64,000 nt of DNA from assembly GCF_021233415.1 (NCBI RefSeq), contig NZ_CP089466.1, forward strand, positions 2,604,001 through 2,668,000. The letters are read 5' to 3'. Below, in pieces: positions 31,661 through 32,002 of the stretch. How positions within the stretch are numbered: position 1 is the first letter of the stretch; each line of letters opens with the position of its first letter. This DNA comes from Halobacterium litoreum. Lineage in GTDB: Archaea > Halobacteriota > Halobacteria > Halobacteriales > Halobacteriaceae. Under the pieces are notes generated by a model, which was not told the DNA's origin, searched no databases, and was given only the letters and a program-made list of their open reading frames with translations. A program made the position numbers and the translations under genes.

Positions 31661-32002
31661 CGCCTCGAAAGCCCCGACCGTGTCCGCTCGCGCACCTCGC
31701 TGCGCCCTTCGCTCGCTTCGCTCACTCCAGTGCTTGCAGCGGCGTGCTTCCCGGACACGGTCGCCCCTTTCAGTCCGCCCGCCACCGGCTCGTCAGGTGG
31801 CCGGAATCTGCTGGCTGGTCAGCTGGTAACGGAGGGAATCCGAAAGGGGCGGCGCGCTGAGCGACGGCGGACGACGCAAGCACGCGACCACCGAGAGCGC
31901 GCACAGCGAGAATCACGCGAGGGGACCGAGCGTGACCTCGAAAGACGAACGAAGCGAGTCTTCCGGTGCCCCCGAGTTCAGCGCGCCGGGGCTTTCGAGG
32001 CG
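31661..32002. repeat. 342-bp composite repeat: copies E2 (+) and E3 (-) with perfect 16-bp terminal inverted repeats
   Basis: Fills most of the gene-free stretch 31559-32097. The ends CGCCTCGAAAGCCCCG (31661-31676) and CGGGGCTTTCGAGGCG (31987-32002) are perfect inverted repeats. E2 (plus, 31667-31771): GAAAG, CCCC, stem GACCGTGTCCG 31676-31686 with CGGACACGGTC 31752-31762, GCCC, CTTTC. Then GCCACC/GGTGGC and CTGGCTGGTCAGCTGG (31811-31826). E3 (minus, 31842-31996): GAAAG, CCCC, stem GGCGCGCTGA with TCAGCGCGCC, GCCC, CTTTC. Both loops contain GTGCTTGC. No open reading frame with credible coding character is present. Confidence 0.9.

Follow-up and report, generated by a model that had tools for sequence, protein, structure and literature searches.

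The palindromic unit between the ferredoxin and cupin genes of Halobacterium litoreum is probably the folded core of an old, IS6-moved MITE-like element

REP and BIME elements consist of paired palindromic units that lie in opposite orientation between genes and are associated with a RAYT (Y1) transposase. In haloarchaea, Haloquadratum carries PATEs, MITEs and SMRs; the PATEs are IS605-derived and have neither inverted ends nor duplications, while the SMRs leave no duplications behind and have ends unlike those of any known transposon (PMC3119063). IS6 elements produce 8-bp target repeats, and two IS6-family MITEs, of 227 and 336 bp, have been recorded (PMC7986276). MITEHsal2 of Halobacterium salinarum 91-R6 measures 411-413 bp and is accompanied by duplications of 8 and 6 bp (PMC10264941).

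The unit considered here separates the divergently oriented ferredoxin and cupin genes in a window of 64 kb, the whole stretch of H. litoreum DNA that was analysed. An initial annotation had described it as 342 bp long, with perfect 16-bp inverted ends, no coding capacity, a linker holding GCCACC/GGTGGC and CTGGCTGGTCAGCTGG, and no target duplication at its ends. All of this is borne out: the unit contains no credible gene or ORF, both linker motifs are present, and the inverted repeats are in fact one base longer, i.e., a perfect 17 bp (ACGCCTCGAAAGCCCCG at 31660-31676 and CGGGGCTTTCGAGGCGT at 31987-32003). Elsewhere in the window, a 17-mer and its own reverse complement occur no more than 600 bp apart at a single place. 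The features of the locus, in window positions, are as follows.

31238-31558, minus strand: ferredoxin (4Fe-4S) gene
31612-32061 (approximate, ~10 bp uncertainty), no strand: inserted segment that nine congeners lack, as judged from their ferredoxin-cupin spacers
31624-31632, plus strand: CTGTTCCGT, possible target-duplication remnant noticed by eye, a candidate that may be due to chance; adjoins GGTACTGTCC at 31633, with partner CTGTTCCAT at 32045-32053
31660-32003, no strand: folded core, four-way junction, of the same plan as a family of 80 core units
31660-31676, plus strand: outer helix P1, 5' side (left inverted repeat of the initial annotation), pairs with 31987-32003
31676-31686, plus strand: left arm stem, 5' side, GACCGTGTCCG; alternative pairing of base 31676 in P1
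31752-31762, plus strand: left arm stem, 3' side, CGGACACGGTC
31763-31771, plus strand: inner helix P3, 5' side, GCCCCTTTC
31772-31841, plus strand: linker domain with small hairpins (GCCACC/GGTGGC, CTGGCTGGTCAGCTGG)
31842-31850, plus strand: inner helix P3, 3' side, GAAAGGGGC
31851-31860, plus strand: right arm stem, 5' side, GGCGCGCTGA
31978-31987, plus strand: right arm stem, 3' side, TCAGCGCGCC; alternative pairing of base 31987 in P1
31987-32003, plus strand: outer helix P1, 3' side (right inverted repeat of the initial annotation)
32071-32565, plus strand: cupin-domain gene, with a likely start at 32098 to judge by homologues

The best single-stranded DNA fold of 31655-32008 is a four-way junction (z = -3.9 versus shuffles), in which the outer ends are closed, a hairpin stands on each side and the linker is closed by GCCCCTTTC/GAAAGGGGC. 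Both halves match one half-element model in opposite orientation (31664-31771, plus strand, and 31842-31942, minus strand), and each can fold alone, as had been claimed; the boundaries GAAAGCCCC and GCCCCTTTC, however, are not complementary over their C runs, and complementarity runs across the unit rather than within one half. The reading as two independent elements facing each other is excluded, since the outer ends pair mutually and so do the inner boundaries GCCCCTTTC/GAAAGGGGC. The same plan of P1, P3 and two arms recurs in 80 units from many haloarchaea, with cores of 235-408 bp; we found no account of such a four-way-junction fold in the open-licence literature. Each unit has two distinct kinds of arm and hence a polarity, the kinds being assigned by similarity to chosen seeds, which leaves the assignment uncertain for some units, including the window copy.

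The H. litoreum genome holds 45 half-matches at about 29 loci (own-genome results rest on searches and on the stretches around copies), and the window unit is therefore no chance palindrome; other copies with such ends do exist. The window itself contains two further half-copies, at 26633-26799 and 62619-62784, the former bearing an extra inserted hairpin (CGAAAGGCGCGTAGCGCCTTTCG). Among 59 genomes of the order, 34 have copies according to the half-element model (R1), with 18 of 31 genera represented, and a strict pattern of linker plus one arm, scanned against 84,980 prokaryote species, retrieves 57 stretches, all haloarchaeal by title; three viral contigs matching a looser pattern were not confirmed by the half-element model. 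In spacers, P1 lies ~90-110 bp from a facing start codon and ~40-65 bp from a facing stop, distances that derive from a simple gene finder.

Comparison with congeners places the limits of the inserted DNA outside the inverted repeats. The ferredoxin-cupin spacer is short, and the element absent, in nine of them (G001, G002, G004, G007-G012), while G003 and G005 hold it; the position is thus common to two congeners and was not seen occupied in distant genera. The empty site called for by the initial annotation does exist, but duplicated target bases are not demonstrable around 31612-32061. In a small gene tree H. litoreum is not grouped with G003 and G005, so that loss, transfer or repeated insertion must be invoked for the shared site; a single insertion is favoured by the extensions of linker and arm, which are shared as well. 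Elsewhere, at L233 of G002, for which G005 and G007 provide the empty site, the insertion starts ~44 bp outside P1. Replacement of flanks between orthologues is only apparent, as ordinary divergence explains it (whole-locus identity 80-94%).

Young copies in other genera reach ~39-55 bp beyond P1, to ends matching those of IS6-family insertion sequences. In Halonotius, flanks are alike up to the ends GGTCGTGTTCAGATAAG and GGTACTGTTCAG, 39-40 bp from P1; the genome encodes an IS6 transposase (NF033587, E=7.5e-56), and the ends of its IS6 element carry GTGTTCAGATAAGCTGG, common to units of the same genome. Another IS6 end type, GGTCGTGTTTAGTTT, matches a Salinadaptatus unit (L167), and IS6-type ends were also recognised in copies L103 and L147. 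A matrix built from IS6 ends only matches 22 of 26 Halonotius flanks at 39-40 bp from P1. Against shuffled flanks the signal is very strong in Halonotius (z 23), clear in other genera (z 5.3) and weak in the H. litoreum genome (z 2.9); it is absent from congener flanks (z -0.9), for which a forward-versus-reverse control was composition-biased, the signal vanishing with shuffled flanks. The automatic search for IS ends, at 19 IS6 loci, left out L178, L180, L262, L177 and L181, the ends of L178 and L180 being obtained separately. CTAG, which occurs near many outer flanks, is unsafe as an end motif, as it partly represents stop codons (L091, L183).

Target duplications accompany several of these ends. 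Exact 8-bp duplications adjoin IS6-type ends in L126 (AGCGAGAG), L103 (GCCGGCCC), L147 (CTCTCGAT), L160 (CTGCGACG) and L152 (TGGCTACT); that of L167 has one mismatch, and that of L153 is ambiguous by a few bases. Overall, 8 of 80 units have exact 8-bp direct repeats spaced as expected, versus a mean of 2.3 and a maximum of 6 for re-paired flanks, a modest excess that includes two units (L119 and L143) whose repeats lie away from IS6-type ends and could have arisen by chance. Congeners G009 and G011 carry full-length IS6 copies of 697 bp, accompanied by exact duplications of 8 bp.

Within the fold, the 16/17-bp inverted repeats form an internal helix, and the inserted DNA is ~39-55 bp longer on each side; empty sites and young copies together rule out these repeats as transposon ends. 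No target duplication is seen at 31660 and 32003 because the outer ends of the inserted DNA lie elsewhere. A transposase with matching terminal repeats, which the initial annotation proposed to look for, is available in the IS6 enzyme of Halonotius, but the match is at the outer ends and the H. litoreum genome has no IS6 transposase match (PF13610, NF033587). Several congeners have such matches, with ~35 each in G004 and G011 (loci L262, L263) against none in H. litoreum. At the window copy itself, neither IS6-type ends nor a target duplication is demonstrable.

Base-pairing of the arms has been maintained through extensive change. In 19 halves from the H. litoreum genome, the 12-pair stem is 95.2% paired and 11 of 12 pairs have changed on both sides, a paired fraction and covariation score reached by 0 of 500 shuffles. 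Over the 80 units, the two arms are 94.9% and 93.0% Watson-Crick, versus 42% and 50% when shuffled; kinship among copies inflates such counts, and comparison within one locus therefore carries more weight. At the window site, the right stem differs between H. litoreum and G003 at three pairs, all three compensated, with the arm interior kept, its unusual extension included. At other orthologous sites, whole arms are different or seemingly swapped, and gene conversion between copies is likely also at work. Arm-stem sequence turns over near-totally while base-pairing stays, which is unusual for mobile DNA. Non-pairs in the arms sum to 31 G.T and 31 A.C, an equality that leaves no one-strand RNA signature, and pairing seems to be kept as DNA, not as one RNA. 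In two Halonotius units (L123, L159), the order of the arms relative to the outer ends is the reverse of that in the remaining units of the genus, as though the core had flipped, and L186 versus L201 suggests the same flip at one site in two congeners.

The initial annotation had likened the unit to a MITE. For the family this holds, given its empty sites, non-coding nature, multiple copies and, where these are young, the 8-bp duplications beside IS6-type ends, but the 16/17-bp repeats are not its ends. We consider it probable (roughly 0.58) that the window unit represents the core of a non-autonomous MITE-like element of haloarchaea, old and decayed, moved by IS6 and with its fold kept as DNA; the window copy is best read as an old family member whose own ends have decayed. 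An IS6-family DDE transposase would have moved the element in trans by its outer ends, the inner fold being either a passenger or needed as a DNA hairpin or cruciform. The copy in H. litoreum, whose genome is without detectable IS6 transposase, would now be stationary. Pairing at the DNA level could be upheld by selection on the cruciform, or by repair in which one strand of the hairpin serves as template for the other. Conserved pairing and loops, however, are unexpected if the interior is a mere passenger.

We tentatively entertain, as a rather unlikely description, a haloarchaea-wide DNA element in which the two-arm four-way-junction fold is itself selected, for instance as a protein-recognised cruciform, and which spread by borrowed IS6-type ends before being kept at fixed sites. 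A domesticated, BIME-like structural element, whose junction or arms would be bound by a chromosomal protein and whose pairing would be selected, the IS6-type ends reflecting past spread or later capture, is unlikely. It would fit stems that change yet stay paired without wobble bias, loops that remain similar across families, sites shared by congeners, and the copy-free 0.92 Mb at 736-1653 kb of C1 in the H. litoreum genome (0 copies; p=0.0003 under uniform placement); yet many copies are partial, presence at any given site is patchy among congeners, and no protein or phenotype is known. By eye, several congeners have long copy-free stretches too.

Pairing could also persist without selection, if intrastrand template switching mended the arms or gene conversion swapped them, which would be compatible with the MITE reading. 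One-sided changes are almost absent, and some orthologous units have retained one arm while their other arm is fully different, or have arms in swapped positions, all of which such processes would produce; they leave the conserved loops and the P1/P3 sequences across families unexplained, and as an explanation of pairing without selection they are quite doubtful. A structured RNA transcribed from the spacer is most improbable and disfavoured by the missing wobble bias: covariation with conserved loops is typical of such RNAs and in P3 G.T outnumbers A.C on the alpha-to-beta strand (59 vs 27), but the arms are free of strand bias (31 vs 31) and have hardly any wobble intermediates, Rfam covariance models match nothing in the window except a tRNA elsewhere, unit orientation is independent of genes (18 same, 22 opposite, counted by hand), and one unit seems inverted between orthologous sites.

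It matters whether pairing is selected or mended. If it is selected, haloarchaea hold a DNA cruciform in tens of copies, with stems that are free to evolve yet complementary, and offer a natural test of whether extruded DNA structures are functional in archaeal cells and of how remnants of transposons turn into parts of the chromosome; if it is mended mechanically, nature has left in this family a clear record of repair templated by hairpins.

Among known systems, the PATEs, MITEs and SMRs of Haloquadratum resemble the family in being haloarchaeal, transposase-free, multicopy and in part palindromic; descent from a PATE or another IS605 derivative is ruled out by the terminal inverted repeats and target duplications of young copies. 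Compared with REP/BIME elements, the window unit is much longer, and both its outer and its inner boundaries pair from one half to the other. MITEHsal2 is alike in genus, length range and 8-bp duplication, a likeness drawn by description only. A further parallel is with the two IS6-family MITEs, and as these two and MITEHsal2 are known here by description only, the family may already have a name. The 227- and 336-bp elements, to judge by their description, are likewise short and ORF-less, with IS6-type inverted ends, an 8-bp duplication (here in young copies) and a similar total length, while the haloarchaeal unit differs from them by its large conserved four-way-junction core, its two distinct covarying arms, and the loss of its ends in most old copies.
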